DNA from: Prorocentrum cordatum
Taxonomy: Eukaryota > Sar > Dinophyceae > Prorocentrales > Prorocentraceae
Direction: 5' to 3'
Assembly (NCBI GenBank): GCA_963575745.1
Contig: CAUYUJ010009380.1
Location: forward strand, 425,741 to 489,740
Length of the DNA: 64,000 nt
The position numbers and the translations under genes were made by a program. This document shows, piece by piece, positions 168-38,312 of this stretch. Within the stretch, counting starts at the first letter, position 1. The number at the start of each line of letters is the position of its first letter. Under the pieces are notes generated by a model. The model did not search any database, was not told the origin of the DNA, and saw nothing but the letters and a program-made list of their open reading frames with translations.

Positions 168-1753
168 CTGGGCGCCGGCGGTAAACCGTCAACCTTTCTT
201 TTTGCGGACTTTGCGGTCGACTGTGCAGGCTTTCCAGCCTAGTCGAAAGCAAGGAAGCGGACGTATAGGGAGCAGGCGAAGCCTCACCGATCCTAACGAT
301 CAGGAAGGCGACAGCCTAAGCTCTCCGAAATACGCTTGTACAACCCGCGGTATGACAAGAGTCTTATGCTCAACGTCAAATGTGAATTGATGAATTAAGG
401 AGATCAAATACTATCGAACCTCTTTGAGGCCACAGTACGTCTCAATCTACAGGCACGTCACATGTCAAATGAAACTGAGGGTACACACTGAATTCTGCAC
501 TCCACTCGAGGCGGAGAAGAGTAAGACGTCATGCAATGAGTAATCAATTAAGACGACAACCTTTCTTACCGCCGGGGGACTCGTAGAGCTTCCTGACAAT
601 ATATAATGTCGAAAAAAATTGCAGAGAACGAATAGTTTTTCGGCCCAAGCGATTTCAGACCTCTCGATACAACAGCCGAGCGCCCCCGATGCTTCTAGAT
701 TGTCTTCTGTACAAGCTCTGTAGCTCTCCTACAGCCCGAGTTACGTGCGAAAATCGACAGCACCTCTCAAGATGATTCGAACAAAACGAATAGTTTGGCA
801 AACCCAGCTCGAGTATCAGACCGAGTTCAGACCTCTGAATGCGACAGGTGGACGCGTCTGATGTCTCTAAATCGATTCCTGTGATGACCAGCCCTGCAGC
901 CCCCCTACAGCCCTATTTAAATGCAGAAAACCGACAGCACCTTTCAGGATGACTCGAACAATACGAATAGTTCTGCGGACCTAGTTTGGGCAGCAGACCG
1001 AGTTCCGAGCTCTGGATTCGACAGGCACACGCGCCTGATGTCTTCAAATCGATTCCTGTGAGCACCAGCACTATAGCCCCCTACAGCCCGAGTTAAGTGC
1101 AGAAAACCGACAGCACCTCTCAAGATGACTCGAACAATACGAATAGTTTCGCGATTATAGATCAGGCAGCACACTGAGTTCAGAGCTCTGGATTCCACAG
1201 ACAAACGCGAATGATGATTCTGAATCGTTTTTGTAAGAGTCAGCTCTGTAGCTGTCCTATAGCTCGAGTTAAGAACAGAAAACCGAGAGCGCCTGTCAAG
1301 ATGACTCGAATAATACGAATAGGTTTGCGGACCTAGCTCGGCTAGAAGACCGAGTTCAGACTCCTGGATGCAACAGACGAACGCGCCTGATCATTCTGAA
1401 TCGATAAGGTGTGCTTACCAGCTCTGTAGCCGTCCTGTATCTCGAGTTAAGTCTGACATACCGACAACGCGTACCAAGATGACTCGAAACAGCCGATCCC
1501 GCCCGTGTGCTTTTTGGCAGTAATATCTACCCGATCGAGCTGAGATCAAGATGGCGAGCGGGAATAAGATCAAAGATCACGGGAAAAAATACTAGAGCTC
1601 TAACGAATGGTTGAATTTCGAGAACAAAATTTTCAACCGACCAAAAGTCACCAAAAGGTCCGTCGAGATTTTTCTTGCCAACTAGCTCTCCAGCGCCCCG
1701 GAATTACTCTTAAGTTTCCAGCAACTACTTGCTAAGGGAAGCTCTACGAGTTA
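168..1753 (-). mobile_element. A-family HINE copy A1
   Basis: It starts with CTGGGCGCCGG and the terminal hairpin, whose second arm lies at 566-577 because a retrotransposon sits in the loop. CTCGTAGAGCTTCC follows, then about four ~177-bp tandem units (GATGACTCGAA-type phase marks at 771, 948, 1124, 1300 and 1478), then a conserved right domain with GATCAAGATGGCGAGCGGGA, ending GCTCTACGAGTTA. Termini and internal tandem repeats match the HINE/DINE-1 class of non-autonomous Helentrons. The short ORFs are not conserved as proteins. Confidence 0.8.
201..556 (-). mobile_element. 5'-truncated non-LTR retroelement (retro-family 1) in the hairpin of A1
   Basis: This 356-bp insert is flanked by an 11-bp direct repeat, CAACCTTTCTT, at 190-200 and 557-567. 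Its left end reads TTTGCGGACTTTGCGGTCGA on the plus strand, so the minus-strand copy ends in a short A tail. The first ~250 bp match the left part of the insert at 15649-17023. A variable 5' end, constant 3' end and target duplication are the signature of target-primed reverse transcription. It holds no ORF of its own; it is 3' UTR only. Confidence 0.82.
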
Positions 1754-2026
1754 TTTAACTGGCAAACGCGGCAGGTAGCGTCCAAAACCCGGAGAGCAAC
1801 TGGCACGGGCGGTGAACCATCAACCTGGTCACCGCCGGGAACCTCGTAGAGCTGCTTCCATGCGTGAGAGTGCTCAGAGTTGAAGGCGAGAACTTCTGGA
1901 GGCATTTCTCAAAAAATTGGACATTTTCCTTTTTCATGTCGACATAAAGTTCGTTCGTCCAGTGTTTTGATAATAAAAATGCGCCTACAGAGCTCATATT
2001 AAGAAGCAGAAGCCCTCAAAAAAATA

Positions 2027-2056
2027 AAAAAAAACAAGAAAAAAAAAAAAAAAAAA

Positions 2057-2089
<33 letters not shown>

Positions 2090-2098
2090 AAAAAAAAA
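2027..2098. repeat. A-rich tract
   Basis: About 72 bp of nearly pure A with scattered C inside a B-family element. It produces T-rich open frames on the minus strand that are not genes. It could be a microsatellite expansion or the remnant of a poly-A tail; no target duplication is visible. Confidence 0.85.
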
Positions 2099-2143
2099 CG
2101 AACATCTTTCAAATCTTAGCAAAACCGACCCAAAGTTACCACT

Positions 2144-3628
2144 TGGTAGCGTCCAAAACCCGGAGAGCGAAGAGACCCTGGGAACGAGAAATCTTCTCTG
2201 GAGAGGGCTGGGGGGCCCCCCTGAGGCGCTTCGGAAGCGCTGCCAGGATCGCTTCCACGCGTGCCTGCACAAATGCAGGCACGCGTGCGCTCCCGGACCC
2301 GCTGCGACCCTGAACTGGGCGCCGGCGGTAAACCGTCAACCTTTCTTACCGCCGGGGGACTCGTAGAGCTTCCTGACAACATATAGTTCCGAAAAAATTG
2401 CAGAGAACGAATAGTTTTTCAGCCCAAGCGATTTCAGACCTCTCGATGCAACAGGCGAACGCCCCCGATGCTTCTGGATTGTCTCTGCACGAGCTCTGTA
2501 GCTCTCCTACAGCCCGAGTTACGTGCGTAAATCGACAGCAACCCTGCAGATGACTCGAACAATACGAATAGTTTGGCAAACCTAGCTCGAGTATCAAACC
2601 AAGTTCAGGCCTCTGAATGCGACAGGCGGACGCGTCTGATGTCTCCGAATCGATTCCTGTGAGTACCAGCCCTGCAGCCCCCCTGCAGCTCGAGTTAAGT
2701 ACAGAAAACCGACAGCATCTCAGGATGACTCGAACAATACGAATAGTTTCGCGGACCTAGTTCGGGCTTCCGAGCTCTGGATTCGACAGGCGGACGCGCC
2801 TTCTGTCTTCAAATTGATTCCTGTGGCTACCAGCCCTGTGGCCCCCCCCACAACCCGAGTTGAGTACAGAAAACCGACAGGATCTCTCAAGATGACTCGA
2901 ACAGAACGAATAGTTTCGCGATTCTAGAGCGGGCAGCATACCGAGTTCAGAGCTCTGGATTCAACAGACAAACGCGACTGATGACTCTGAATCGGTTTCT
3001 CTAAGTATCTGCTATGTAGCTGTCATATAGCTCAAGTTAAGTACAGAAAACCGAGAGCGCCTGTCAAGATGACTCGAATAATACGAATAGGTTTGCGGAC
3101 CTAGCTCGGCTAGCAGACCGAGTTGAGACCTCTAGATGCAACAGACGAACGCGCCTGATCATTCTGAATCGATAAGGTGTGCTTACCAGCTCTCTAGCTG
3201 TCCTCTATCTCGAGTTAAGTCCAATAAACCGACAGCGTGTACGAAGATGACTCGAAAGGGCCGATCCCGCCTGGACGCTTTTTGGCAGTAAAAGGTACCC
3301 GATCGAGCTGAGATCAAGATGGCGAGCGGGAATAAGATCGAATATCACGGGAAAAAATACTAGAGCTCTAACGAATGGTTGAATTTCGAGAAAAAAATTT
3401 TCAATCGACCAGAAGTCACCAAAAGGTCCGTCGAGATTTTTCTTGCCAACTAGCTCTCCAGCGCCCCGGAATTACTCTTAAGCTTCCAGCAATAACTTGC
3501 TAAGGGAAGCTCTACGAGTTACGAACTGCTGCGAGGATTCTGGAGCGGCGGAGATGGGCTGCTGGCGGGCACCACCACCGTCCGGCTTCTACTCTAAAAC
3601 CCTCTAGCTCTCAGAGAGCTCTCCGGGG
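2144..3628 (-). mobile_element. D-family element split by A2
   Basis: Family D starts GGTAGCGTCCAAAA then CCCGGAGAGC. It ends with the small palindrome AGCTCTCAGAGAGCT and then CTCCGGGGA, so GCTCTCC pairs with GGAGAGC. Outer parts are 2144-2314 and 3522-3628; removing A2 rejoins the GC-rich core (GACCCGCTGCGACC...GGCGGAGATGGGCTGC). The asymmetric inverted ends resemble A, B and C in layout but not in sequence. Confidence 0.7.
2315..3521 (-). mobile_element. A-family HINE copy A2
   Basis: A full-length 1.2-kb A element, from CTGGGCGCCGG with an intact hairpin to CTCTACGAGTTA. It contains about four to five ~177-bp repeat units and the conserved right domain. It is inserted into D element 2144-3628 after CCTGAA without a visible target duplication. 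Confidence 0.82.
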
Positions 3629-3696
3629 ACATCTTCTTTTCTGGCCGGATCGACCAACTAGCTCCACCCCGCGCCAGAATCATCGATAACGAAGAA

Positions 3697-4856
3697 CTGG
3701 GCGCCGGCGGTAAACCGTCAACCTTTCTTACCGCCGGGGGACTCGTTGAGCTTCCTGACAATATATAATGCCGAAAAAATGCAGTGAACGAATAGTTTTT
3801 AGCCCAAGCGATTTCACACCTCTCGATGCAACAGCCGAACGCCCCCGATGCTTCTGGATTGTCTTCTGTGCGAGTTCTCTGCTCTCTACAGCCCGAGCTA
3901 CGTGCGTAAATCGACAGCGCCTCTCAAGATAACTTGAACAATACGAATAGTTTGGCAAACCTAGCTCGAGTATCAGACCGAGTTCAGACCTCTGAATGCG
4001 ACAGGCAGACTCGTCTGATGTCTCTGAATCGATTCCTGTGATTACCATCCCTACAGCCCCCCAACAGCCCGAGTTAAGTGCAGAAAACCGACAGCACCTC
4101 TCAGGATGACTCAAACAACGAATAGTTTCGCAGACGAGTTCCGAGCTCTGGATTTGACAGGCACACGCGCCTGATGTCTTCAAATCGATTCCTGTGACTA
4201 CCAGCACTGTAGCCGCCTACAGCCCGAGTTAAGTAGAGAAAACCGACAGCATCTCTCAAGATGACTCGAACAATACGAACAGTTTTGTGATTCTAAATCG
4301 GGTAGCAAACCGAGTTCAGAGCTCTGGATTCAACAGACAAACGAGCTGTCATATAGCTGTCATATAGCTCGAGTTAAGCACAGAAAACCGAGAGCGCCTG
4401 TCAAGATTACTCGAATAATACCAATAGGTTTGCGGACCTACCTCGGCTAGCAGACCGAGTTCAGACCTCTGGGTGCAACAGACGAACGCGCCTGATCATT
4501 CTGAATCGATGAGGTGTGCCTACCAGCTCTGTAGCTGTCCTCTATCTCGAGTTCAGTCCAATATACCGAGAGCGCGTATCAAGATGACTCGAAACGGCCG
4601 ATCCCGCCAGTGTGCTTTTTCGCAGTGAAAGGTATCCGATCGAGCTGAGATCAAGATGGCGAGCGGGAATAAGATCGAATATCACGGGAAAAAATACTAC
4701 AGCTCAAACGAATTGAGGAATTTTGAGGAAAATATTCAACCGACCAAAAATCACCAAAAGGTCCGTCGAGATTTTTCTTACCAACTAGCTGTCCAGCGCC
4801 CCGGAATTACTCTTAAGCTTCCAGCAATAACTTGCTAAGGGAAGCTCTACGAGTTA
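3697..4856 (-). mobile_element. A-family HINE copy A3
   Basis: Complete copy with hairpin, CTCGTAGAGCTTCC-type terminus (variant CTCGTTGAGC), ~177-bp units and right end CTCTACGAGTTA. The left flank is the truncated end of a B element (ATAACGAAGAA). The right flank is the middle of A4's tandem array (CTGTAGCCCC), so a deletion or recombination accompanied this junction. Confidence 0.78.
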
Positions 4857-5456
4857 CTGTAGCCCCCCACAACTCGAGTTAAGTATAGAAAACCGAGAGC
4901 ACCTCTCAAGATGACTCGAACAATACGAACAGTTTCGCGATTCTAGAGCGGGCAGCAGACCGAGTTCAGAGCTCTGGATTCAACAGACAAACGCGACTGA
5001 TCACTCTGAATCGTTTTCTGTAAGTATCAGCTCTGTAGCTGTCATATAGCTCGAGTTAAAGACAGAAAACCGAGAGCGCCTGTCAAGATGACTCGAATAA
5101 TACGAATAGGTTTGCGGACCTAGCTCGGCTAGCAGACCGAGATCAGACCTCTGGATGCGACAGACGAACGCGCCTGATCATTCTGAATCGATAAGGTGTG
5201 CTTACTGTCCTGTATCTCGAGTTAAGTTCAATATACCGACAGCGTGTATCAAGATAACTCGAAACGGCCGATCCCGCCTGGACGCTTTTTGGCAGCAAAA
5301 GGTACCCGATCGAGCTGAGATCAAGATGGCGAGCGGGAATAAGATCGAATATCACGGGAAAAAATACTAGAGCTCTAACGAATGGTTGAATTTCGAGAAC
5401 AAAATTTTCAACCGACCGAAAGTCACCAAAAGGTCCGTCGAGATTTTCCTTGCCAA

Positions 5457-6668
5457 CTGGGCGCCGGCGGTAAACCGTCAACCTTTCTTACCGCCGGGGG
5501 ACTCGTAGAGCTTCCTGACAATATATAATGTCGGAAAAAAATTGCAGAGAACAATTAGTTTTTCAGCCCAAGCGATTTCAGACCTCTCGATGCAACAGCC
5601 GAACGCCCCCGATGCTTCTGGATTCTTCTGTACGAGCTCTGTAGCTCTCCTACAGCCCGAGTTACGTGCGTAAATCGACAGCAACCCTGAAGATGACTCG
5701 AACAATACGAACAGTTTGCCTAGCTCGAGTATCAGACCAAGTTCAGGCCTCTGAATGCGACAGGCGGACGCGTCTGATGTCTCCGAATCGATTCCTGTGA
5801 TTACCAGCCCTGCAGCCCCCCTACAGCCCGATTGGACTGCAAAAAACCTACAGCATCTCAGGATGACTCGAACAATACGAATAATTTCGCGGACCTAGTT
5901 CGGGCAGCAGACTGAGTTCGGAGCTCTGAATTCGACAGGCGGACGCGCCTGATGTCTCCAAATCGATTCCTGTGACTCCCCGCACTGTAGCCACCCACAA
6001 CCCGAGTTAAGTACAGAAAACCGACAACATCTCTCAAGATGACTCGAACAATACGAACCGTTTCGCGATTCTAGAGCGGGCAGCAGACCGAGTTCAGAGC
6101 TCTGGGTTCAACAGATAAACGCGAATGATGACTCTGAATCGGTTTCTGTAAGTATCAGCTCTGAAGCTGTAATATAGCTCGAGTTAAAGACAGAAAACCG
6201 AGAGCGCCTGTCAAGATGACTCGAATAATACGAATAGGTTTGCGGACCTAGCTCGGCTAGCAGACCGAGATCAGACCTCTGGATGCGACAGACGAACGCG
6301 CCTGATCATTCTGAATCCATCAGGTGTGCTTACCAGCTCTGTAGCTGTCCTGTATCTCGAGTTCAGTCCAATATACCGACAGCGCGTATCAAGATGACTC
6401 GAAACGGCCGATCCCGCCCGGACGCTCTTTGGCAGTAAAAGCTTTCCGATCGAGCTGAGATCAAGATGGCGAGCGGGAATAAGATCGAATATCACGGGAA
6501 AAAATACTAGAGCTCTAACGAATGTTCAAATTTTGAGAACAAATATTTCAACCGACCGAAAGTCACCAAAAGGTCCGTCGAGATTTTTCTTGCCAACTAG
6601 CTCTCCAGCGCCCCGGAATTACTCTTCAGCTTCCAGCAATAACTTGCTAAGGGAAGCTCTACGAGTTA
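5457..6668 (-). mobile_element. A-family HINE copy A5 (complete, precise insertion)
   Basis: From CTGGGCGCCGG to CTCTACGAGTTA. It interrupts A4 exactly between GCCAA and CTAGCTC. The same junction is uninterrupted in many other copies, so the empty site is known and no base is duplicated or lost. This is the rolling-circle style of integration expected for Helitrons. Confidence 0.85.
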
Positions 6669-8269
6669 CTAGCTCTCCAGCGCCCCGGAATTACTCTTAA
6701 GCTTCCAGCAATAATGGCGCCGGCAGTGAACCGTCAACCTAGTCACCGCCGGGAACCTCGTAGAGCTCCGTACACTGATACGAGTGCTGAGAATCAAAGT
6801 AGAGGCATGAAATACAGATTTTTCGAAAATCTTGATTGTTTGATTTTTTCGATATTCATATCAGCTTGGTTCCCGGAAGTCAACTCTCAAGAAAATACAT
6901 CGGGAGAGCTGAGCTGCTGTCAGAGAGGAGTTTATATGCCAATGCGACGCGCAAAAATCTGCTTTCTCAAAATAAATGGTTAAATATCTTTCAAATTTTC
7001 GCAAAACAGACCAAAAGTCATAAATTTGTCCGCCCGGGCCGGGTCGACCAACTGGGCGCCGGCGGTAAACCGTCAACCTTTCTTACCGCCGGGGGACTCG
7101 TAGAGCTTCCTGACAATATATAATGTGGGAAGAAAATTGCAGAGAACGCATAGTTTTTCAGCCCAAGCGATTTCAGACCTCTCGATGCAACAGCCGAACG
7201 CCCCCCGATGCTTCTGGATTGTCTTCTGCACGAGCTCTGTAGCTCTTCTACAGCCCGAGTTACGTGCGTTAATCGACAGCACCTCTCAAGATGACTCGAA
7301 CAAAACGAACAGTTTGGCAAACCCAGCTCGAGTATCAGACCGAGTTCAGACCTCTGCATGCGACAGGCGGACGCGTCTGATGTCTCCGAATCGATTCCTG
7401 TGATTACCAGCCCTGCAGCCCCCCTACAGCCCGAGTTAAGTGCAGAAAGCCGACAGCATCTTTCAGGATGACTCGAACAATACGAGCAGCTTCGCGGACC
7501 TAGTTCGGGCAGCAGACCGAGTTCCGAGCTCTGGATTCCAGAGGCGGACGCGCCTGACGTCTTTAAATCGATTGCTGTCACCACCAGCACTGTAGCCCCA
7601 TTACAGCCCGAGTTGAGTGCAGAAAACCGACAGCACCTCTCAAGATGACTCGAACAAAACGAACAGTTTCGCGATTCTGGATCGGGCAGCAGACCGAGTC
7701 CAGAGCTCTGGATTCAACACACAAACGCGACTGATGATTCTGAATCGATTTCTATAAGTGTCAGCTCTGTAGCTGTCCTATAGCTCGAGTTAAGTACAGA
7801 AAACCGAGAGGGCCTATCAAGATGACTCGAATAATACGAATAGGTTTGCGGACCTAGCTCGGCTAGCAGACCGAGTTCAGACCTCTGGATGCAAGAGACG
7901 AACGCGCCTGATCATTCTGAATCGATAAGGTGTGCTTACCAGCTCTGTAGCTGTCCTATATCTCGAGTTAAGTCCAATATACCGACAGCGCGTATCAAGA
8001 TGACTCGAAACGGCCAATCCCGCCTGGACGCTTTTTGGCAGTAAAAGCTACCCGATCGAGCTGAGATCAAGATGGCGAGCGGGAATAAGATCGAATATCA
8101 CGGGAAAAAAAAAAACTAGAGCTCTAACGAATGGTTGAATTTCGAGAACAAAATTTTCAACCGAACAAAATTCACCAAAAGGTCCGTCGAGATTTTTCTT
8201 GCCAACTAGCTCTCCAGCGCCCCGGAATTACTCTTAGCTTCCAGCAATAACTTGCTAAGGGAAGCTCTA

Positions 8270-8348
8270 CTGGGCGCCGGCGGTAAACCGTCAACCTTCC
8301 TTACCGCCGGGGGACTCGTAGAGCTTCCTGACAATATATAATGGGAAG

Positions 8349-8396
<48 letters not shown>

Positions 8397-9477: not shown

Positions 9478-9579
9478 CGAGTTACTAGCTCCACCCAGCG
9501 CCGGAATTTCTCTAGCTCATCGCTGCCGAAGAGCTCTACAAGCTACTTGCTAAGGGAAGAGTTACTGGCAAACGCGGCA

Positions 9580-9860
9580 GGTAGCGTCCAAAACCCGAAG
9601 AGCAAAAAAACCGTCGCAGAGAGGAAATCCTTCCTGGAGGGCTCTAGGGGGCTCCCCTGCAGCGCTGCTGAAGCGCTGCCAGGAACGCTCCCACGCGTGC
9701 GTGCACGAGCGCAGGCACACGTGAAAAGCGCCCCCGAACCCGCTGCCGGGACGGGCGAGCCGCTGCGAGGATCGTGGAGCGGCGGAGATGGGCTGCTGGC
9801 GGGCACCACCACCGTCTGGCTTAATCTAAAACCCTTTAGCTCTCAGAGAGCTCTCCGGGA
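9580..9860 (-). mobile_element. D-family element
   Basis: GTAGCGTCCAAAACCCGAAGAGC at the left, GC-rich core with the inverted pair GCACGCACGCG/CACGCGTGC around 9690-9722, and right end CTCTCAGAGAGCTCTCCGGGA. Nearly complete and uninterrupted, it serves as the reference D copy (~280 bp). Confidence 0.72.
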
Positions 9861-10909: not shown

Positions 10910-10985
10910 TGGTCAAATATCTTTCAAATATTCGCAAAAACCACCCAAAAGTTGCCACTTTGTCCTTTCTGATCGGCTCGATGAA

Positions 10986-13827: not shown

Positions 13828-14830
13828 CTGGGCGCCGGCGGTGAAGCGTCAACCTTGGTTACCGCCGGGGGACTCTTAGAGCTTCCTGACAACACATAAT
13901 GTCAAAAAAAAGTTTCAGCCCAAGCAATTTCAGAACTCTCGAATGCAACAGCTGAACGCCCCCGATGCTTCTGGATTGTCTTCTGCACGAGCTCTGTAGC
14001 TCTGCTACAGCCCAAGCTACGTGCGTAAATCGACAGCACCTCTCAAGATAAATCGAACAATACGAATAGTTTGGCAAACCTAGCTCGAGTATCAACCGAG
14101 TTCAGATCTCTGCATGCGACAGGCGGACGCGTCTGATGTCTCTGAATCGATTCCTGTGATTACTAGCCCTGCAGCCCCCCCTACAGCCCGAGTTAAATGC
14201 AGGAAACCGACAGCACCTCTCAGGATAACTCGAACAATACGAATAGTTTTGCGGACCTAGTTCGGGCAGTAGACAGAGTTCGGAGCTCTGGATTCGAAAG
14301 GCGGACACGTCTGATGTCAGGCCCGACTTAAGTGCAGAGAACCGACAGCATCTCTCAAGATAACTCGAACAATACGAATAGTTTCGCGATTCTAGATCGG
14401 GCAGCAGACCGAGTTCAGAGCTCTGGATTCAACGACAACGACCACTGATAATTATGAATCAGATTATACGTATCAGCTCTGTTAAGTACAGAAAACCGAG
14501 AGCGTCTGTCAAGATGACTCGAATAATACCAATAGGTTTGCAGACATAGCTCGGCTAGCAGGCCGAGTTCAGACCTCTGGGTTCAACAGGCGAGCGCGCC
14601 TGATCATTCTGGATCAAATGGCTGTGCTTACCAGCTCGGTAGATGTCCTGAAGCTCGATTTATCTTGAGAAAACCGACAGCGCGTATCAAGATGACTCGA
14701 AACGGCCGATCCCGCCTGGACGCTTTTTGGCAGTAAAATGTACCCGATCGAGCTGTGGTCAAGATGGCGAGCAGGAATAAGATCAAATGTTACGCTTCCA
14801 GCAACAAGCTCAGGGAAGCTCTACGAGTTA
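13828..14830 (-). mobile_element. A-family HINE copy A9
   Basis: Starts CTGGGCGCCGGCGGTGAAGCG after CAGCAA, ends GCTCTACGAGTTA. The right domain is internally deleted, jumping from GATCAAATGTTACG to the end sequence. The following 14 bases are A8's own right end, so two identical termini lie side by side. Confidence 0.78.
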
Positions 14831-14844
14831 AGCTCTACGAGTTA

Positions 14845-15078
14845 CAGGCGCGCTTTCTTAAAGTGTCCAGACCCTTGAATTCGGTTTGGCATGTGGACAA
14901 TCTTTATTCCCGGAGAGCTCTCTGGAAGCTATAAGGTTTCAGACTGGGATCCCGCAGTGAACCGTCAATCAGGTAACCGCCGGGAGCCTCGTAGAGCACT
15001 GTTCTCGCGCGGTGCTGCTCGGAGTACACGAAAAAGCTTTCTCAAGCGTGAAGAAACAAGGTTGCAAAATATGTTTTT
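14845..15078. repeat. Mosaic of D and C fragments
   Basis: Contains an inverted D end (CCCGGAGAGCTCTC near 14909) and a C-like left terminus (CAATCAGGTAACCGCCGGGAGCCTCGTAGAGC, about 14966-14997). No complete element or gene is recognisable. Confidence 0.55.
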
Positions 15079-15349: not shown

Positions 15350-15648
15350 GGCAGACTTGGCAGCATCCAAAACCCGGAGAGCGAAGAACCTCTGGGACGG
15401 GACATTTTTTCTGGAGAGCTTTGGGAGCTCCCCAGAAACGTCTCTGAAGCGCTACCAGGAACGCTTCCACGGGTGCCTGCACGCGCGCAGGCACGCGTGG
15501 ACGCGCGGTGGAAGCGCCCCCAAACCCGCTGCCGGGTCGGGCGAGTTGCTGCGAGGATCGTGGAGCGGCGGAGATGGGCTGCTGGCGGGCACCACCAGCG
15601 CCTGGCTTCTTATCTAACTGGAGCCGGCGGTAAACCGTCAACCAGGTT

Positions 15649-17023
15649 TTTTGCGGACTTTGCGGTCGACTGTGCAGGCTTTCCAGCCTAGTCGGAAGCA
15701 GTAAAGGGCGGACGACAACCCGCGGCATGACAAGAGACGTATGCTCATCGTCAAAAGAAGAATAAATTAATGAGATCAAATACAATCGAACCTCTTTGAG
15801 GCAACCGTAATTCTCAATCAACAAGCACGTCGAAACAATCAAGAAAATGAATGAAACCTGTCTCTGAATCCGTCTCACTGAATAAGCACGTGACACAATA
15901 CAAGCAAGCAACAAAGAGAGGCGGCGGCAGGCAGCAGATACTCAGGTGCAATGCATAGTATTAGCAGGTCTCGTAGACACAGGCCTCGTAGACGCAGCAC
16001 TCGCCACAGAACCTGATCGCACCAGTCCCTGAAGTCTCTGGACGGAGGCCTCAAGTTGATTTCGTCTAGCCTCCAAATTGGAAATTGCAACACCCTGCTT
16101 CTGTACCTGGGTCTGAACATTATCGATTTTACTACCCTGAACTACTATGGCGTCCTGGATCCTCTCAGTATTGTCATCCATCTTATGCATCGTCTGAAGT
16201 AGTAAGCACCGCATGTTATCCTCGTTATCCTTCTCCAACTCCGACATCTTCACATCAGCTGCCGTCTGAGCAGGAACAGGAACGTGCGAACCCACGTGCG
16301 CAACTTCATGATCAACACGCTGAGTCTTTAGGGTCTGCCCTACAGGCTCCCCAAGGACAGCATCATGCCCCGACCTGCAAGTCATAGTTTTCTTCTTCGG
16401 CCTCCTCGATATGGGTCTCAGCCTTGCTTGAAGGGGTATCTCATAAGAAACCACTGAAGACCGATCATCAAACTGGACTCGCCTAGATGACGAGCTCCCA
16501 ACATGAGAATCAGAGGCGCCATGATCAACACTGGACCTGTGATAACAAGATATCTCATGATCAACATCCTGATCAACCTTTAGGGTCTGCCCGACAGGCT
16601 CCCCGAGGACAGCATCCTGCCCCGACCTGCACGTCATAATTTTCTTCCTCAGCCTCCTCCGCTGCCGCCGGGATCCGGCCGAACCGGCGGCAGCGGGATC
16701 AGGGGCGCCCTGCGCCGGACCAACGCCACACCGCGTCGCCGCCATGACCGAGGCCACGGCAGCCGCGGCGGCTGCGACAGTCCTGCGCGGGGCACCTGCC
16801 TGAACAGCAGCGCGGACCGCTGCCTCCACAAGAGAAGCAGCCAACGCGGCGCCGCCGTCGTCCCTCATAGTGAGAGCACCGTGTACAGTATGAGGAACCA
16901 AAGACTCCTGACTGCACAATGCAGCTCGAGAGAGCCCCCCGGCGGGACAAGGCCGAGGGAGAGCGGGAGGTAAGCTCCGCTTCCTCAACCTTTGTTACCG
17001 CCGGGGGACTCGTAGAGCTTGAG
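15649..17023 (-). mobile_element. Retro-family 1 insertion, longer copy
   Basis: It is flanked by CCAGGTT at 15642-15648 and 17024-17030. The 3' end (left) matches the insert at 201-556: TTTTTTGCGGACTTTGCGG, then TCGACTGTGCAGGCTTTCC. It carries one ORF ahead of ~290 bp of 3' UTR. At its 5' end, bases 16986-17023 are an A-type hairpin half with CTCGTAGAGCTT that does not belong to the C target, apparently transduced from the source locus. No reverse transcriptase is encoded, so mobilisation in trans is inferred. Confidence 0.78.
15942..16868 (-). CDS. Coiled-coil protein of retro-family 1, unknown function
   Basis: The frame is open back to 16988, but the first ATG is at 16868 and gives about 308 residues. 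The N-terminal third is Ala- and Arg-rich and low in complexity. A 20-residue segment beginning KKIMTCRSGQDAVLG and ending with EPVGQTLK occurs twice, the second time as KKTMTCRSGHDAVLG. The C-terminal part (MSELEKDNEDNM to LEASVQRLQGLV) has heptad-like spacing suggesting a trimeric or parallel coiled coil, the usual layout of LINE ORF1 proteins. There is no RNA-recognition motif, zinc knuckle, reverse transcriptase or endonuclease that I can see. As it lies directly before the 3' UTR, the element may be a non-autonomous ORF1-only derivative. Alternatively it is a retroposed host mRNA. Function is unknown. Confidence 0.5.
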   Translation of the reverse strand: MRDDGGAALAASLVEAAVRAAVQAGAPRRTVAAAAAAVASVMAATRCGVGPAQGAPDPAAAGSAGSRRQRRRLRKKIMTCRSGQDAVLGEPVGQTLKVDQDVDHEISCYHRSSVDHGASDSHVGSSSSRRVQFDDRSSVVSYEIPLQARLRPISRRPKKKTMTCRSGHDAVLGEPVGQTLKTQRVDHEVAHVGSHVPVPAQTAADVKMSELEKDNEDNMRCLLLQTMHKMDDNTERIQDAIVVQGSKIDNVQTQVQKQGVAISNLEARRNQLEASVQRLQGLVRSGSVASAASTRPVSTRPANTMHCT

Positions 17024-17436
17024 CCAGGTTACCGCCGCGAGCCTCGTAGAGCTCTTTTCTCGTACGGCGGCGCTGCTTAGAACACGTGGCAGGAGCTTTT
17101 CTGATACGCGAGCTGAAAACTCGAAAAAGTAAGTTTTTTAGTTGTCACTGAACGACGGTTCCGCCAAGTGTTTTGATAGTAATACTGCAGCTACGGACCT
17201 GAGAATTCATTGGCAGACGCAAAAAAAAACTTATTACAGGTGCGAAAAATACCAGATCTCAAAACGAATGTTCAAATCTCTCACAAAGTTCGTCCAACCG
17301 ACCCAAAGTTCGCACATTGTCCGTCCGGGCCGGGTTGGCCAACTAGCTCCACCCCGCGCCCGAATTCCTCTAGCTCATAGATGCCGACGAGCTCTACGAG
17401 GTAAACGCTCTAGCTCTCAGAGAGCTCTCCGGGAAT

Positions 17437-29104: not shown

Positions 29105-32100
29105 TACCAATAGGTTCGCGGACCTAGCTCGGGGGGCAGGCCGAGATCAGAGCTCTTGATCAACAGACGAACGCGCCTGATAATTATCAATCGATTTCTG
29201 TGATTATCAGCTTTGTGGCTGCCCTACAGATCGAGTTGAGTACGAAAAACCGAGAGCGTCTGCTACAATGACTCGAATAGTACGATTAGGTTTGCGTCTT
29301 TAGCTCGGCTAGCAGACTGATTTCAGACCTCTGGATTCAGGCGAACGCGCCTGATCATTCTGAATGCATTAGCTGTGCTGGCCAGCTCTGTAGTTGTCCT
29401 GAAGCTCGAGTTATCTTGAGAAAACCGACAGCGCGTATCAAGATGACTCGAGACGGCTGTTCCCGCCGGGGCGCTTTTTGGCCTTGAAAGTTACCCGATC
29501 GAGCTCAGATCGAGATGGCGAGCGGCAATAAGATCGAATATCATGGGAAAAATACTAGAGCTCTAACGAATTGTCAAATTTTGAGAACAAAATTTTTAAC
29601 CAGCCAAAAAGTCAGCAAAAGGTCCGTCGAGATTTTTCTTGCCAACTAGCTCTCGAGCGCCCCGGAATTACTCTTAAGCTTCCAGCAATAACTTGCCAAG
29701 GGAAGATCTACGAGTGACTTGTAAGCGTCCAAAACCCGGATAGCGAAGCCAAGCGCGGAACGCCGCACGGGAACCTCTGCCAGGCCGCCTGAAACGATGC
29801 GCGGGACGCTGGAAACTGGGCGCCGGCGGTAAACCGTCAACCTTGGTTACCGCCGGGGAACTCGTAGAGCTTCCAAGCTCGACTTAAGTTGAGAAAACCG
29901 AGAGCACCTACAAACATGCAGAAATTGAGAGCACTTTTCACGATGATTCGGACAATACGAATTGTTTCGCGTACCTAGCTCGAGCAGCAGGCCGAGTTGA
30001 GAGCTCTCGATACAACAGACAAACGCGCCCGATAATTCTCATCGATTTCTGTGTCTCTAGGCTTTGTAGCTGCCTACAGCTCGAGTTAAGTACAGAAAAT
30101 ACCGAGAGCATTTGTCAAGATGACTCGAATAATACGAATAGATTGCGGGCCTAGCTCGGCTAGCAGACCGAGTTCAGACCTATAGATTCAACAGGCGAAC
30201 GCGCATGATGATTCTGAGTGCGATAGACGTGCTTACCAGCACTGTAGCTGCCCTAGAGCTCGAGTTAAGTAGAAAATACCGACAACGCGTATCAAGTTGA
30301 CTCGAATAATACGAATAGATTTGCGGACCTAGCTCGGCTAGCAGACCGAGTTCAGACCTCTGGATTCAACAGGCGAACGCGCCTGATAATTCTGGATGCG
30401 ATAGGTGTGCTTACCAGCTCTGTAGCTGCCCTACAACTCGAGTTAAGAACAAAATACCTACAACGCGCATCAAGATGACTGGAAACGGCCGTTCCCGCCG
30501 GGACGCTTTTTCGCCTTCAGAGTTACCCGATCGAGCTGAGATCAAGATGGCGAGCGGTAATAAGATCGAATATCACGGAAAAAAATACTACAGTTCTAAC
30601 GAATTGTCAAATTTCGAGAACAAAATTTTCAACCGACCAAAAGTCACCAAAAGGTCCGTCGAGATTTTTCTTGCCAACTAGCTCTCCAGCGCTCCGGGAT
30701 TACTCTCAAGCTTCCAGCAATAACTTGCTAAGGGAAGCTCTACGAAATACCAATAGGTTCGCGGACCTAGCTCGGGGGGCAGGCCGAGATCAGAGCTCTT
30801 GATCAACAGACGAACGCGCCTGATAATTATCAATCGATTTCTGTGATTATCAGCTTTGTGGCTGCCCTACAGATCGAGTTGAGTACGAAAAACCGAGAGC
30901 GTCTGCTACAATGACTCGAATAGTACGATTAGGTTTGCGTCTTTAGCTCGGCTAGCAGACTGATTCAGACCTCTGGATTCAGGCGAACGCGCCTGATCAT
31001 TCTGAATGCATTAGCTGTGCTGGCCAGCTCTGTAGTTGTCCTGAAGCTCGAGTTATCTTGAGAAAACCGACAGCGCGTATCAAGATGACTCGAAACGGCC
31101 GTTCCCGCCGGGGCGCTTTTTGGCCTTCAAAGTTACCCGATCGAGCTGAGATCGAGATGGCGAGCGGCAATAAGATCGAATATCATGGGAAAAATACTAG
31201 AGCTCTAACGAATTGTCAAATTTTGAGAACAAAATTTTTAACCAGACCAAAAAGTCAGCAAAAGGTCCGTCGAGATTTTTCTTGCCAACTAGCTCTCGAG
31301 CGCCCCGGAATTACTCTTAAGCTTCCAGCAATAACTTGCTAAGGGAAGATCTACGAGTGACTTGTAAGCGTCCAAAACCCGGATAGCGAAGCCAAGCGCG
31401 GAACGCCGCACGGGAACCTCTGCCAGGCCGCCTGAAACGATGCGCGGGACGCTGGAAACTGGGCGCCGGCGGTAAACCGTCAACCTTGGTTACCGCCGGG
31501 GAACTCGTAGAGCTTCCAAGCTCGACTTAAGTTGAGAAAACCGAGAGCACCTACAAACATGCAGAAATTGAGAGCACTTTTCACGAAGATTCGGACAATA
31601 CGAATTGTTTCGCGTACCTAGCTCGAGCAGCAGGCCGAGTTGAGAGCTCTCGATACAACAGACAAACGCGCCCGATAATTCTCATCGATTTCTGTGTCTC
31701 TAGGCTTTGTAGCTGCCTACAGCTCGAGTTAAGTACAGAAAATACCGAGAGCATTTGTCAAGATGACTCGAATAATACGAATAGATTTGCGGGCCTAGCT
31801 CGGCTAGCAGACCGAGTTCAGACCTATAGATTCAACAGGCGAACGCGCATGATGATTCTGAGTGCGATAGACGTGCTTACCAGCACTGTAGCTGCCCTAG
31901 AGCTCGAGTTAAGTAGAAAATACCGACAACGCGTATCAAGTTGACTCGAATAATACGAATAGATTTGCGGACCTAGCTCGGCTAGCAGACCGAGTTCAGA
32001 CCTCTGGATTCAACAGGCGAACGCGCCTGATAATTCTGGATGCGATAGGTGTGCTTACCAGCTCTGTAGCTGCCCTACAACTCGAGTTAAGAACAAAATA

Positions 32101-32215
32101 CCTACAACGCGTATCAAGATGACTGGAAACGGCCGTTCCCGCCGGGACGCTTTTTCGCCTTCAGAGTTACCCGATCGAGCTGAGATCAGGATGGCGAGCG
32201 GAAATAAGATCGAAT
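28645..32215. repeat. Recent 1.64-kb tandem duplication
   Basis: Copy 1 (about 28645-30287) and copy 2 (about 30288-31931) are almost identical over their whole length, and a partial third copy runs to about 32215. Landmark offsets are 28681 to 30324 (1643) and 30324 to 31968 (1644). Each copy includes A-family right domains, a D fragment (AAGCGTCCAAAACCCGGATAGC) and an A left terminus (29817 and 31460). Near identity means unequal exchange or replication slippage after the nested insertions formed. There are no genes. Confidence 0.88.
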
Positions 32216-32391
32216 ATCACGAGAAAAAATACTAGAGCTCTAACGAATTGTCAAATTTCGAGAACATAATTTTCAACCGACTAAAAGTTGTGAAAGTTCA
32301 GTTCTTTTTTTTCGAGCCAACTAGCTCTCGAGCGCGCCGGGATTACTCTTAGCTTCCAGCTATAACTAGCTAAGAAAAGCTCTACGAGTTT

Positions 32392-32797
32392 CTTGTAAGC
32401 GTCCAAAACCCGGATAGCGAAGCGAAGCGCGGAACGCCGCACGGGGATCTCTGCCAGGCCGCCTAAAACGATGCGTGGGACGCTGGAAACCTCGCAGGAG
32501 AAGCTTGCAGGGGCGCCGTTTACGATGCGTGGGGCCCTGCAAAGCGCGGAAGGAAGATTTGCCTAGGAGCCTGGAAAAACTGCCGCAGCTCTTCCGAAGC
32601 TCTGCCGAGGCCCATTGCGCACCCTGGAGCCACACGTATTGGGAAACGCTTCGAAGCCACGCTCCCGGACCCGCTGCAACCTCCGGCGAGTCGCTGCGGG
32701 GATCGTGGACCGGCGGAGGTGGGCGCGTGCTCCTCACCATCCACCTCCGGCTTCTTATCTCAAACCCTCAGCTCTCCAAGGAGCTATCCGGGAACTT
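32392..32797 (-). mobile_element. D-family element, long form
   Basis: AAGCGTCCAAAACCCGGATAGC left end and AGCTCTCCAAGGAGCTATCCGGGA right end, giving the inverted pair CCCGGATAGC / GCTATCCGGG. Both arms carry the same change relative to other D copies (CCCGGAGAGC), so the two ends coevolve. Confidence 0.72.
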
Positions 32798-32811
32798 CTA
32801 AGCGTCCAAAA

Positions 32812-33688
32812 CTGGGCGCCGGCGGTAAACCGTCAACCTTTGTTACCGCCGGGGGACTCGTAGAGCTTCCTGACAATATATACTGTCGGAAAAAATTGCA
32901 GAGAACGAATAGTTTTTGAGCCCAACTCGAGTATCAGACCGAGTTCAGACCTCTGAATGCGACAGACGGACGCGTCTGATGTCTCCGAATCGATTCCTGT
33001 GATTACCCGCCCTGCAGCCTCCCTACAGCCCGAATTAAGTGCAGAACGCCGACAGTAGCTCTCAAGATGACTGGAAGAATGCGAACAGTTTCGTGATTCT
33101 GGATCGCGCAACAGACTGAGTTCAGAGCTCTGGATCCAACAGGCGAACGCGCCTGATGATTCTGAGTGCGATAGGTGTGCTTACCAGCACTGTAGCTGCC
33201 CTACAGCTCGAGTTAAGTAGAAAATACCGACAACGCGTATCAAGTGAACTCGAATAATACGAATAGGTTTGCGAACCTAGCTCGGCTAGCAGACCGAGTT
33301 CAGACCTCTGGGTTGAACAGGCGAACGCGCCTGATCATTCTGCAGGCATTAGCTGTGCTTACCAGCTCTGTAGCTGCTCTAGAGCTCGAGTTATGTTCAG
33401 AAAACCGACAGCGCGTATCAAGACGACTCGAAACGGCCGTTCCCGCCACAGTGCTTTCAAAGTTACCCGATCGAGCTGAGATCAAGATGGAGGGCGGAAA
33501 TAAGATCGAATATCACGGGAAAACATCCTAGAGCTCTAACGAATTGTCAAATTTCGAGAACGAAATTTTCAACCGAGCAAAAGTCACCAAAAGTTCCGTC
33601 GAGATTTTTCTTGCCAACTAGCTCTCCAGCGCGCCGGAATTACTCTTAGCTTCCAGCTATAACTAGCTAAGGGAAGCTCTACGAGTTA
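32812..33688 (-). mobile_element. A-family HINE copy A19
   Basis: Complete from CTGGGCGCCGG to CTCTACGAGTTA, with a shortened ~177-bp array. It is inserted in another D fragment between GTCCAAAA and CCCGGATAGC; that D fragment continues at 33689-33808. Confidence 0.8.
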
Positions 33689-33808
33689 CCCGGATAGCGA
33701 GGCAAGGCGCGGAGCAAAGGGGCGCACGGCAACCCCTGCCAGGCCGCCCGGAACGATGCGTGGAGCGCTGGAAACCTTGCAGGAGAAACCTGCGGGGCGT
33801 CTTGTAGA

Positions 33809-34115
33809 CTGGCGCCGGCGGTGAACCGTCAACCTGGTAACCGCCGGGAACCTCGTAGAGCTCCTTTCACGCGTAAGAGTGCTCAGAGTCGAAAGAGAGA
33901 GCTACTGGAAGCATTTTTCGAAAAAGAGAGAAGTTCATTTTTTCGTGTCGACATGAAGATAGTTCCGCCAAGTGTTTTTAGTAAAAATGCGCCTAAAGAG
34001 CTCATACTAAGACAGAGAGGCCCTTATAGTCGTTTACAGGTGCGAAAAATCTGCTTTCTTAAAATGAATTGTCAAATCTCTTTCAAAAAATTGGAAAACC
34101 ACCGAAAAGTTAACA
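33809..34115 (-). mobile_element. B-family HINE, left part
   Basis: CTGGCGCCGGCGGTGAACC with hairpin, ACCTCGTAGAGCTCC and B body to AGTTAACA, where the next B copy begins. Confidence 0.72.
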
Positions 34116-35209
34116 CTGGCGCCGGCGGTGAACCGTCAACCGGTCACCGCCGGGAACCTCGTAGAGCTCCTTGAATCCGTGAGAAAGCTCAGCATCAAAG
34201 CGGGAGCTTCTGGGAGCTTTTCTACAAAAACTTCAAGTTGAGATTTTTTCGGAGTCAACATGAAGTCGGTTCCTTCAAGTGAACTGGTACTGAAAATGAC
34301 TCTAGATGGCCGAGCTGATCAGGGAACGAAGTTTATATCTCAATGCTCGGAGTAAAAATCTGCTTTTTCAAAATGAATTGTCAAATATCTTTCAAAAAAT
34401 TGCAAAACCACCCAAAAGTTGTCACATTGTCCGCCTCGGCCGGCTGGACCAAAGTTCTCACTCCCAGCGAAGCTATTCATATGAAGTCTCGCGCTCTCAG
34501 TGAGAGCGCGAGACCATTCTGCGTCGACAAAAATGCACCAGAACTCTCTAGGTCACCCATAGATCGATATAAATTAGAAAAAAAATCATCCGACACAAAA
34601 AATACAAAATTGTACAAATCGATATTTTTCATTGATTTTGAAAATTCTAATCAATTTGGGCACTCTCGAGGCTCCCATTCGATGTCTCGCATGTCGCTAC
34701 TTCGATTGGAATGTACCTGGCATGCATAGCATGCACTCAGCTCGAGTTATCATCGAAACACCGTTCGCAACACGCATACATAGAGACAGTATTTCGAGCA
34801 TAACTCCTGACTCAGCCATTTCTAGGAACTCTCGAGCTTCCAGTGTGACGCGCCAGATCATTCTGCATCGACTGGTGTGCGTGAGAGGTCTGTAGCTTGC
34901 TGACAGCTCGAGTTAAGTAAAGCCAACCACCGTCACCTGCCAAACTGCACTGCAGGCAAAGTCGGTTCCTGCAAGTCTTTTGACAGTAATATTGCCCCTG
35001 GAGCCCTGAAAATTTTACCAGCAGGTGCGCCATAGCTTACTGTATGTGAGAAAAATCCGTTTTCTGAAAACGAATTGTCAAATCTTGCACAAAGTTTCAA
35101 AAACCGACCTCAGGTTAACACATTGTCTCTTTTGCTCGGGTCGGCCAACTAGCTCCACCCTGCGCCCGAATTCCTCTTAGCTCATCTCTTCGAAGAGCTC
35201 TACGAGGTA
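34116..35209 (-). mobile_element. B-family element fused to an 'E' segment
   Basis: B left end and body reach GGCTGGACCAA. Then comes a segment not seen in other B copies (I call it E: AGTTCTCACTCCCAGCGAAG, a perfect palindrome at 34488-34512, AT-rich TATAAATTAG stretch, GTCGGTTCCTGCAAGTC) and a right terminus GAGCTCTACGAGGTA. The same B+E arrangement recurs at 35508-36559 and 63215-64000, so it is an amplified unit. ORFs across it are short and not convincing. Confidence 0.72.
34488..34512. repeat. Perfect 12-bp palindrome arms
   Basis: CTCGCGCTCTCA, one G, then TGAGAGCGCGAG. The same palindrome is at 35281-35305 and 35879-35903, and with one changed base at 63587-63611. With a one-base centre it can extrude only as a tight cruciform; a recognition site is possible. 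Confidence 0.92.
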
Positions 35210-35507
35210 AGTTGTCACATTGTCCGCCTCGGCCGGCTGGACCAAAGTTCTCACTCCCAGCGAAGCTATTTATATGAAGTCTCGCGCTCTCAGTGAGAGC
35301 GCGAGACCATTCTGCGTCGACAAAAATGCACCAGAACTCTCTAGGTCACCCATAGATCGATATAAATTAGAAAAAAAATCATCCGACACAAAAAATACAA
35401 AATTGTACAAATCGATATTTTTCATTGATTTTGAAAATTCTAATCAATTTGGGCACTCTCGAGGCTCCCATTCGATGTCTCGCATGTCGCTACTGGATTG
35501 GAATGTA
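35210..35507 (-). mobile_element. E segment copy, cut by a B element
   Basis: Starts AGTTGTCACATTGTCCGCC, includes the palindrome at 35281-35305, and ends TTGGAATGTA where the B copy at 35508 begins. Confidence 0.7.
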
Positions 35508-36559
35508 CTGGCGCCGGCGGTGAACCGTCAACCTGGTCACCGCCGGGAACCTCGTAGAGCTCCTTGAATCCGTGAGAAAGCTCAGCATCAAAGCGGGAGC
35601 TTCTGGGAGCTTTTCTACAAAAACTTCAAGTTGAGATTTTTTCGGAGTCAATGAAGTCGGTTCCTTCAAGTGAACTGGTACTGAAAATGACTCTAGATGG
35701 CCGAGCTGATCAGGGAACGAAGTTTATATCTCAATGCTCGGAGTAAAAATCTGCTTTTTCAAAATGAATTGTCAAATATCTTTCAAAAAATTGCAAAACC
35801 ACCCAAAAGTTGTCACATTGTCCGCCTCGGCCGGCTGGACCAAAGTTCTCACTCCCAGCGAAGCTATTCATATGAAGTCTCGCGCTCTCAGTGAGAGCGC
35901 GAGTCCATTCTGCGTCGACAAACATGCACCAGAACTCTCTAGGTCACCCATAGATCGATATAAATTAGAAAAAAAATCATCCGACACAAAAAATACAAAA
36001 TTGTACAAATCGATATTTTTCATTGATTTTGAAAATTCTAATCAATTTGGGCACTCTCGAGGCTCCCATTCGATGTCTCGCATGTCGCTACTTCGATTGG
36101 AATGTACCTGGCATGCATAGCATGCACTCAGCTCGAGTTATCATCGAAACACCGTTCGCAACACGCATACATAGAGACAGTATTTCGAGCATAACTCCTG
36201 ACTCACATTTCTAGGAACTCTCGAGCTTCCAGTGTGACGTGCCAGATCATTCTACATCGACTGGTGTGCGTGAGAGGTCTGCAGCTTGCTGACAGCTCGA
36301 GTTAAGTAAAGCCAACCACCGTCACCTGCCAAACTGCACTGCAGGCAAAGTCGGTTCCTGCAAGTCTTTTGACAGTAATATTGCCCCTAGAGCCCTGAAA
36401 ATTTTACCAGCAGGTGCGCCATAGCTTACTGTATGTGAGAAAAATCCGTTTTCTGAAAACGAATTGTCAAATCTTGCACAAAGTTTCAAAAACCGACCCC
36501 AGGTTAACACATTGTCTCTTTTGGTCGGGTCGGCCAACTAGCTCCACCCTGCGCCCGAA
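35508..36559 (-). mobile_element. B+E element into which the large Helentron is inserted
   Basis: Second complete B+E arrangement, nearly identical to 34116-35170 at an offset of about 1391 bp. It stops in its right terminus at CTGCGCCCGAA, where uninterrupted copies continue TTCCTCTTAGC (compare 35160-35180). The large element's 3' end therefore landed at AA/TT. Confidence 0.75.
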
Positions 36560-36591
36560 CTGGGCGCCGGCGGTAAACCGTCAACCTGGTT
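36560..36591 (-). repeat. 3' terminal hairpin, outer arm
   Basis: CTGGGCGCCGGCGGTAAACC followed by GTCAACCTGGTT. The other arm, TTACCGCCGG, is at 38286-38295 beyond the retroelement. Before that insertion the hairpin had a 10-bp stem and a loop of about a dozen bases. Confidence 0.85.
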
Positions 36592-38276
36592 TTTGAGTTT
36601 GAGTCAGGGCGCGGACAGCTGTGACAGCTGAGCCCTAAGACTCCCAAACGGAGCACAGGGTAGCTGGAGAGGGCAACTCTTATCATCACACTGCCGAGCC
36701 ACTGAGGCATAGGCAACGGAATAGGATGCAGGAACAAGGAAAAGGATGCAATACAACATGTGAAAATGTAAAGGTGTTGGAGAGCTCCAAGCAAGATGAA
36801 ATGAGTCAGCTGCTTGGATGAAAGATGCTACCCAAAATGTGCTCCACGGCCATACAGAGCCGTTGTGCTGCAATCATCTCACAAAACATGACAGAAGCAG
36901 AGGCATCAAGCGAGACAGCTTCCTCCGCCACCAACTGCCACGTCCCGTGTACACACAAATCTATACACCATCCTGCAGCACATCCCTCCACAGAGCGACC
37001 TCCGTCGAAGAATCCACGGAGGCCGTCTAGTTTTGTTTACTCGCATGTTCAATAAGTGAGGTATGGAACGTAACGTAACTATTTTTGGTTCTGGCCAACC
37101 ATGTCAGCCTGTCAGCTCTTTCGTTTCCTTCTCGATAGATCCACTTGAACATATTGTGGCCCCAACTCGGAGGCCTCATACCATACAACACAGAGATATG
37201 CTCCAGCCTATTTTGAATGTCGCCAAGAATGTGCTTGTAGATAATATTGGATGTTGCCCAGAGACCGTTAATCCAATTCACCCCTGTGGCGGAGTCCCCA
37301 ATCAATTCCATCGGTATCGAGTCCCGAGGCTCCGCATTCCACTCCGATGCATGTTCATTAATGTACGCAAGTCGTTTCTCCATCTTCTCGTCCTCCTTCC
37401 TTTGCTGCTCCTCCGTCTTCTCCCTCTCCTCCTCCTCCCTAGCATATCCCGCAGGTTGTGCATGTTTAAAGTAACAGTACCCCCACGCCTCCTCCATGTT
37501 AGTAACATCCAGTGCCCGCTTCAGAAATTCTTTCCATCCCTGACGTGAAGAGGATAACGTGTGATACCAATCCTTCCCTGATACCAACTCGAAAATGTAA
37601 TGGAAGTTTCTCAACGCCAGTGGTCTCCCCCCCTCATGCCGACGCGTCATTAATGGGCGTTCTTTCCAAGGCAGCGATGCAATGAAGGCCTGCCGTCGGT
37701 CAGTCCACTCCCCCGACCATGCAAAATACATTCTCTAGCCTGCATATGCGAGTCCCCTGTACTACGATGCTGAGGTGGAGCCACCCGTCGCCGCTTGTTT
37801 GCAGCGATTTCCTGCGACGGCAACTCAACAGAGGAACGCTTTTGCGACAGAGAATCCTGAGATGGATGGAATGTCTTTGCACGCTTATGCATCTGGGAAA
37901 TCAGATTGCGCCGATGCGCGGGTAATTGTGTCTGAGAACCAGGGAGCTCAAAGGAATCAACAGCATGCATCGTCTCACACACGTCAGGATGACATCCCAT
38001 TGATGTCGAGCACGCAATACTTGGTAGCACATACATGGGTTCATCCTGACGTTGTCTCTTGGCCGGCGGTGGCTCACACGCAGCAAAGACGTTGGGGCCA
38101 GGCTTGCCTGAAGAATCAAAAGTACCTGGAGGAATCTGTGCGGGTCTTGGGTTCAGGCGTTACACAGTAAACGTACAGTCCTGAGCCCACTGCCACTGAC
38201 GAAACAAGAATAGCTGCACAAGAGACGGCCGTCCCAATTCCAGGAGCATACGCCGCCCACGTTTGTACAAGTTGCA
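36592..38276 (-). mobile_element. 5'-truncated non-LTR retrotransposon (retro-family 2) in the Helentron hairpin
   Basis: The 1685-bp insert is flanked by TCAACCTGGTT at 36581-36591 and 38277-38287. In minus sense it ends GACTCAAACTCAAAA, a short repetitive tail. It encodes an RNase H domain near its 3' end; the reverse transcriptase is missing, as expected for 5' truncation. The 3' sequence is unrelated to retro-family 1, yet the insertion point is the same. Confidence 0.84.
37027..37731 (-). CDS. RNase H domain fragment of a non-LTR retrotransposon polyprotein
   Basis: An ATG-initiated frame of 234 residues. The first ~135 residues are a charged linker with an EEEEREKTEEQQRKE-type helix and no recognised domain. 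Residues ~145-220 look like an RNase H of the LINE or plant type: GDSATGVNWINGLWA near 145 supplies the first Asp, GDIQNRLEH the Glu region, and YREGNERADRLTWLA the final conserved N-x-x-AD motif. RNase H removes the RNA strand during reverse transcription. The frame is preceded immediately by a stop, while a second open frame (37650-38036) reads into the same region from upstream, so a frameshift near 37730 probably separates two parts of one polyprotein. The element is a dead truncated copy. The assignment rests on motif spacing and is moderate. Confidence 0.65.
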   Translation of the reverse strand: MYFAWSGEWTDRRQAFIASLPWKERPLMTRRHEGGRPLALRNFHYIFELVSGKDWYHTLSSSRQGWKEFLKRALDVTNMEEAWGYCYFKHAQPAGYAREEEEREKTEEQQRKEDEKMEKRLAYINEHASEWNAEPRDSIPMELIGDSATGVNWINGLWATSNIIYKHILGDIQNRLEHISVLYGMRPPSWGHNMFKWIYREGNERADRLTWLARTKNSYVTFHTSLIEHASKQN

Positions 38277-38312
38277 TCAACCTGGTTACCGCCGGGGACC
38301 TCGTAGAGCTCC
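38277..38312 (-). repeat. 3' terminal hairpin, inner arm, and subterminal inverted repeat
   Basis: TCAACCTGGTTACCGCCGG followed by GGACCTCGTAGAGCTCC. It completes the hairpin begun at 36560 and gives the Helentron the same terminus as families A, B and C. Confidence 0.85.

Follow-up and report, generated by a model that had tools for sequence, protein, structure and literature searches.

The question raised by this locus is whether retrotransposons of a dinoflagellate single out the terminal hairpin of another mobile element as their insertion site. The sequence analysed (the window) is a stretch of 64,000 nucleotides from Prorocentrum cordatum, located at the end of its contig. Positions 1–38313 are filled by a Helentron-like array with ends ACTGGGCGCCGGCGGTAAACCGTCAACCnnnnTTACCGCCGG..CTCGTAGAGCT and internal repeats of ~177 bp. 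The name is based on the terminal hairpin and the array; the likeness to Helentron/Helitron2 lies in the non-autonomous elements found here, in which 8 bases separate the hairpin from one end. The near-end position of the hairpin, a hallmark of Helentrons, is based on a predicted fold and on an element boundary set by eye at CGCCCAGT. As single-stranded DNA the hairpin has predicted folding energies of -12.8 to -14.1 kcal/mol (z-scores of -3.35 to -3.67). An Rfam search gave no match. Besides three interrupted copies, the window contains 37 intact hairpins (36 in the array and one at 63217; table counted by hand). The segment 38314–62600 is GC-rich and strongly skewed with long open frames, and none of the three frames searched had a Pfam match; ARAGORN predicted a tRNA-Asn at 45240–45331. 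The features of the window are as follows.

1–38313, no strand: array of Helentron-like elements with ~177-bp internal repeats
167–200, plus strand: left half of the hairpin broken by insert 1 (right half 557–593)
201–556, minus strand: insert 1, family I, 356 bp, 11-bp duplication CAACCTTTCTT
15620–15649, plus strand: left half of the hairpin broken by insert 2 (right half from ~17024)
15650–17023, minus strand: insert 2, family I, without reverse transcriptase, 3' end in common with insert 1
15942–16994, minus strand: open frame inside insert 2, 350 aa stop to stop, with P. cordatum homologues
16985–17020, minus strand: a second hairpin's arm plus flanking sequence, at the 5' end of insert 2; the 36 bp recur unchanged at 32833–32868
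17018–17026, minus strand: TGGCTCAAG, possible spliced-leader remnant, the TGG of which overlaps the duplicated target
36559–36592, plus strand: left half of the hairpin broken by insert 3 (right half 38277–38310)
36593–38276, minus strand: insert 3, family II, 5'-truncated, 11-bp duplication TCAACCTGGTT; its 3' 406 bp equal the copy in L038
37027–37734, minus strand: frame with the first half of the ORF2 RNase H; its end departs from the homologues after ASK
63217–63268, plus strand: extra hairpin outside the array

All three inserts start at the identical base, directly after the TT of TT|ACCGCCGG, and all are in minus orientation. The plus-strand junctions read CCGTCAACCTTTCTT|TTTGCGG for insert 1, CCGTCAACCAGGTT|TTTTGCGG for insert 2 and CCGTCAACCTGGTT|TTTGAG for insert 3, and in each the hairpin part stops at the TT found in front of ACCGCCGG in uninterrupted hairpins. 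The target duplications comprise 11, 7 and 11 bp, respectively. An earlier note on this DNA had described three minus-oriented inserts with these duplications at one base of the hairpin, and in this it was right. It had placed the cut in the hairpin loop, which is wrong: the cut lies 2–4 bp inside the predicted stem, on the 3' arm. The 3' ends of inserts 1 and 2 are 98% identical over 51 bp and 83% over 120 bp while that of insert 3 differs, in agreement with the note's assignment of two inserts to one family and the third to another. Stretches of at least 60 bp in 1–38313 without similarity elsewhere were parts of the inserts (the third exactly 36592–38276) and one piece of 144 bp (14795–14938), in a comparison with the rest of the window and the loci sampled by then, which insertions repeated there would escape. 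Proteins encoded by the inserts match predicted P. cordatum proteins at 75–99% over part of their length; a PDB sequence search with protein P0001 gave nothing relevant.

Counted on both strands, TT|A occurs 748 times in the array minus the inserts, and 21 of these sites are located in a hairpin arm (strict pattern). The probability of finding three out of three inserts in hairpin arms is therefore 2.2e-5, ignoring the selection of the finding, and the note's judgement that chance was very unlikely holds.

The target is abundant. In the assembly searched (4.13 Gb in 21,875 contigs; the published genome size is given as 4.15 Gb, PMC10666404) the sequence GGTTACCGCCGG has 10,886 exact matches, compared to 1,003 for the reversed control. 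The sole match in the contig search was L001, a contig labelled as a marine Nitrospinota MAG with several similar hairpins; it is probably stray, misbinned eukaryote DNA and was kept out of every count. Viral contigs yielded none by the hairpin pattern, and none was confirmed by protein P0003.

We sampled loci in several ways. Among 30 loci around exact GGTTACCGCCGG (L002–L031) there was one, L006 (extended as L032), in which the central hairpin is occupied by a LINE flanked by the 11-bp duplication TCAACCAGGTT. Five 10-kb stretches chosen for hairpin density alone (L034–L038) contained 41 full hairpins. Another four are interrupted, each by LINE-like DNA beginning at the base used in the window. 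A search by homology covering 233 kb in 39 sequences (L001 and L033 excluded) gave matches in four more loci, L004, L017, L026 and L030. The LINE in L043/L030 lies in a hairpin, the halves of which are 1.7 kb apart, with a 10-bp duplication CAACCTGGTC. That in L042/L026 has its 3' junction in the left arm of a hairpin with the right arm partly lost, as judged by eye. The remaining two were assigned to family VI by eye on the basis of a common 3' stretch, and both are located outside hairpins: the L004/L041 copy in array DNA (L004:2104 to L041:1700) with a 13-bp duplication TGGACGCTTACAA, and L017:1–300, which ends in an apparent 177-bp repeat. In total, the window and the sampled loci contain ten hairpin insertions from about five families, as defined by 3' ends, and two insertions outside. 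Eight arbitrary 10-kb stretches (80 kb, three of them on the window's contig) showed no hairpin and no LINE match.

A classification of 153 left arms by script found 133 intact. The other 20 were sorted further into eight LINE junctions (L033 being a duplicate of the window), eleven base-changed hairpins and one unrelated sequence (window 27491); the pattern missed the L038 junction. Two observations on broken hairpins speak against targeting by LINEs alone. At L007:941 (also in L032) a hairpin is broken at GTCA, a few bases away from the LINE insertion base, by a long tandem repeat with a unit of ~90 bp (by eye) that was not recognised as a LINE. At L043:1238 there is one half-hairpin.

Genome-wide, the 23-nt 3' end of family I, TTTGCGGACTTTGCGGTCGACTG, has 481 exact copies (236+245; reversed control 0). 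Flanks were read for the first 60 of the 100 places listed and assigned by script to hairpin (53), loose (6) or other (1). In the loose rows L063, L076, L103 and L111 the arm can be recognised by eye despite a change of one or two bases, and together with such by-eye assignments the left arm of the hairpin is found directly upstream in 57 of the 60. L071 and L085 have only TCAACCTTGGTT, the last 12 bases of the arm, and L099 has a rearranged flank. For family II the 3' end TTTGAGTCAGGGCGCGGACAG has 620 copies (300+320; control 0), the first 20 of which in listing order were sorted by script into 13 hairpin, 2 core and 5 other flanks. Four (L125, L131, L133 and L135) are arms with changes as judged by eye, so that 17 of the 20 flanks have the arm; the flanks of L123, L124 and L129 are limited to TCAACCTGGTT or CAACCTCGGTT, similar stretches of 11–12 bases. 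L056 corresponds to the copy in L035, and L120 to that in L038/L040; neither is independent of the sampled loci. Most copies in the flanks read thus share one target sequence, as expected of a target-specific LINE, and they do not lie mostly outside the hairpin, the outcome that the earlier note had named as refuting its proposal. The proposal is supported for families I and II and does not extend to every LINE of the lineage, family VI being outside hairpins in both copies seen; targeting is so a family-specific trait within the lineage.

The full-length element that the earlier note had proposed to look for was found in family II. The copy L040:3488–9414 (contig C61) is 5.93 kb long, lies in a hairpin, the right arm of which is short of a few bases, and has a 3' junction also present in L038. 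It comprises an open frame of 397 codons (ORF1) and an ORF2 of 1392 codons, both counted stop to stop. The reverse transcriptase was identified by matches to RVT_1 (2.2e-09 in the ORF2 of L040 and 1.2e-07 in that of L034) and by a profile match to a solved retroelement reverse transcriptase (3.4e-06). At the start of ORF2, alignments show QE, YLP, DAN, DYL and SDH in four relatives, and NVRR in both relatives that reach that far. We take QE, DxN, DY and SDH at this position to be motifs of an apurinic-like endonuclease, an assignment by motif in the alignments; Pfam gave no match in this stretch of ORF2.

Insert 3 is a shorter copy of L040, with 406 identical bp at the 3' end, where the comparison ends with the locus; the rest is alike in translation by eye with shifted frames. 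The common 3' end of both copies at unequal lengths corresponds to the fixed 3' and variable 5' ends of LINEs. Duplications are 7–11 bp long, and a few bases are lost instead in L035, L039 and L040. L034 (6.12 kb) represents a second family with the same layout as L040, interrupted by stops. L035 combines the family I 3' end with the end of a reverse transcriptase and RNase H, so that family I appears to be a coding family to which inserts 1 and 2 belong as short copies. L039 (family IV, 2.1 kb) has a 550-codon frame in which no reverse transcriptase was seen.

Direct observations are the base of insertion, the target duplications, the counts of flanks and the open ORF2 with endonuclease motifs, reverse transcriptase and RNase H. 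Based on them we consider it very probable that LINEs of one dinoflagellate lineage target the Helentron-like hairpin at TT|ACCGCCGG by means of their own apurinic-like endonuclease. We propose that this endonuclease, which would set the specificity, cuts a single strand of the hairpin at TT|ACCGCCGG. The TT end released in this way would then anneal to the RNA at its A-rich 3' end and prime reverse transcription, and a cut of the other strand ~7–11 bp upstream would give rise to the target duplications, some copies losing a few bases of the arm instead. The steps are presumed to occur in this order, and the linear sequence rather than the folded hairpin would be recognised.

Insertion at any TT|A, in hairpin arrays that are merely common or tolerant, would need no targeting at all, and family VI does insert elsewhere in the arrays. 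Hairpin arms, however, make up 21 of 748 array TT|A sites, yet contain 57 of 60 and 17 of 20 of the copies read, and chance was rejected as highly improbable. Helentron replication or duplication of the array could also have raised the number of a few old insertions: L105 and L106 lie on one contig with the same flanking sequence, and flanks are similar among L052, L053, L062 and L109 and among L064, L066 and L090. Similar flanks, however, are also expected where Helentrons nest in repeats. The loop subtypes vary among copies (TTTC, TTTG, TTGG, AGG, TGG and others), many flanks are unlike by eye, and several families with unlike 5' ends use one base. In view of these varied loops, flanks and families we rejected multiplication as the main cause, less surely than chance, and regard it as very unlikely.

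The remaining alternatives concern what is recognised. That a host or Helentron protein on the hairpin guides the LINE machinery would explain how families with ORF2 ~34% identical use one base; the exact base and the TT|A form, on the other hand, fit an endonuclease nick, and family VI has no hairpin preference in the same nucleus. We consider such a guide quite unlikely. Recognition of the folded hairpin, as a cruciform or a single-stranded intermediate, is consistent with the predicted folding energies given above, but appears doubtful: five of the 80 copies (L071, L085, L123, L124 and L129) have no left arm on the left side that was read, only the last 11–12 bases, so that the left arm seems dispensable for insertion. 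L071 itself is followed by another family I copy, which lies within the 709 bases behind it and has 690 bp identical to insert 2. This points to a tandem insertion in which a later LINE entered the target duplicated by an earlier one. Behind L099 a sequence resembles LINE 5' ends (86%), and behind L085 no match was found.

In element sense insert 2 begins with TGGCTCAAG CTCTACGAGTCCCCCGGCGGTAACAAAGGTTG, followed by the LINE. The hairpin arm at this 5' end shows that the source copy of insert 2 was likewise located in a hairpin at the same base, which would be one further insertion. TGGCTCAAG is a possible remnant of the spliced leader. Next to L099 a copy begins with CCGGTAACCATTTGGCTCAAG and hairpin flank, three edits from this leader. 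TGGCTCAAG occurs 11 times in 342 kb and precedes hairpin flank in two of these; a reversed 9-mer control (254 matches) is uninformative because this 9-mer is part of the array repeats. It speaks against a leader remnant that matches to the leader with at most four edits occur in seven places, including an exact match in L045 and a three-edit match in L047, neither at a hairpin. From two copies we infer that some source RNAs may have started in Helentron flank and gained a spliced leader there by trans-splicing.

RNase H domains usually start with the FDGG-like strand. In L040, L034, L035, P0004 and P0031 the order is GDS, NxxAD, FDGG and an acidic residue in the last stretch, and the halves look swapped (L040:5015–9190, L034:2482–3045, L035:3812–5805, P0004 and P0031). 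In natural order only the second half of RVT_3 was matched, with 16.2 bits for the P0031 stretch, 14.8 for P0004, 18.9 for P0005 and 15.7 for L034, and Pfam reported no RVT_3 match for the whole ORF2 of P0031 or L040. With the halves swapped, the scores were 22.9 (P0031), 20.3 (L034) and 18.5 bits (P0004); only the swapped P0031 stretch passes the Pfam cut-off of 21.6. This supports, without proving, that RNase H is apparently circularly permuted in several LINE families. No paper on a circularly permuted RNase H domain in a retrotransposon was found in the open-licence literature searched. A wider reading, to which we give about even chances, is that a LINE lineage with permuted RNase H radiated into families sharing a one-base hairpin niche, with the Helentron providing an RNA start and a trans-splice acceptor and the duplicated target taking up tandem LINEs.

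The order ORF1, endonuclease, reverse transcriptase and C-terminal RNase H is that of I-like and some L1-like LINEs; the RNase H halves appear swapped here. Tx1L of Xenopus (Tx1 clade), reportedly described in 2000, is said to be a LINE with an apurinic-like endonuclease that targets the DNA transposon Tx1D. It resembles the present elements in inserting into a DNA transposon with this type of endonuclease and differs in its target, here a Helitron-like terminal hairpin, in the number of families and in the swapped RNase H halves. The R2 endonuclease is restriction-like, and the likeness of our LINEs to R2 is functional only. The hairpin may, by inference, be a safe multi-copy niche, as the earlier note suggested. 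R2 is described as inserted many times at one base of its multicopy target, the rDNA (PMC5035012); the rDNA-specific R1/R2 LINEs share this with the elements here and differ in target and host. Repeats, transposons among them, are established targets of LINEs (PMC4640811, PMC8869645). In the open-licence literature searched we found neither a LINE in a Helitron hairpin nor a case in which several families insert at one base and a relative does not target it. Target-specific LINEs, one of them in a DNA transposon, are known; the hairpin as target, its use by more than one family and the apparently permuted RNase H did not turn up in the literature searched.

The locus presents one genomic parasite inside another, with retrotransposons in the hairpin of an abundant Helitron-like transposon. 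If our reading is true, the end of a rolling-circle transposon joins the targets of LINEs, and a very abundant target it is. How such RNAs arise and are copied might be approached separately, through the apparently swapped RNase H halves and the putative leader remnants. With several targeting families and a related non-targeting family in one nucleus, a single lineage would then allow a comparison of what underlies the choice of target by apurinic-like endonucleases.
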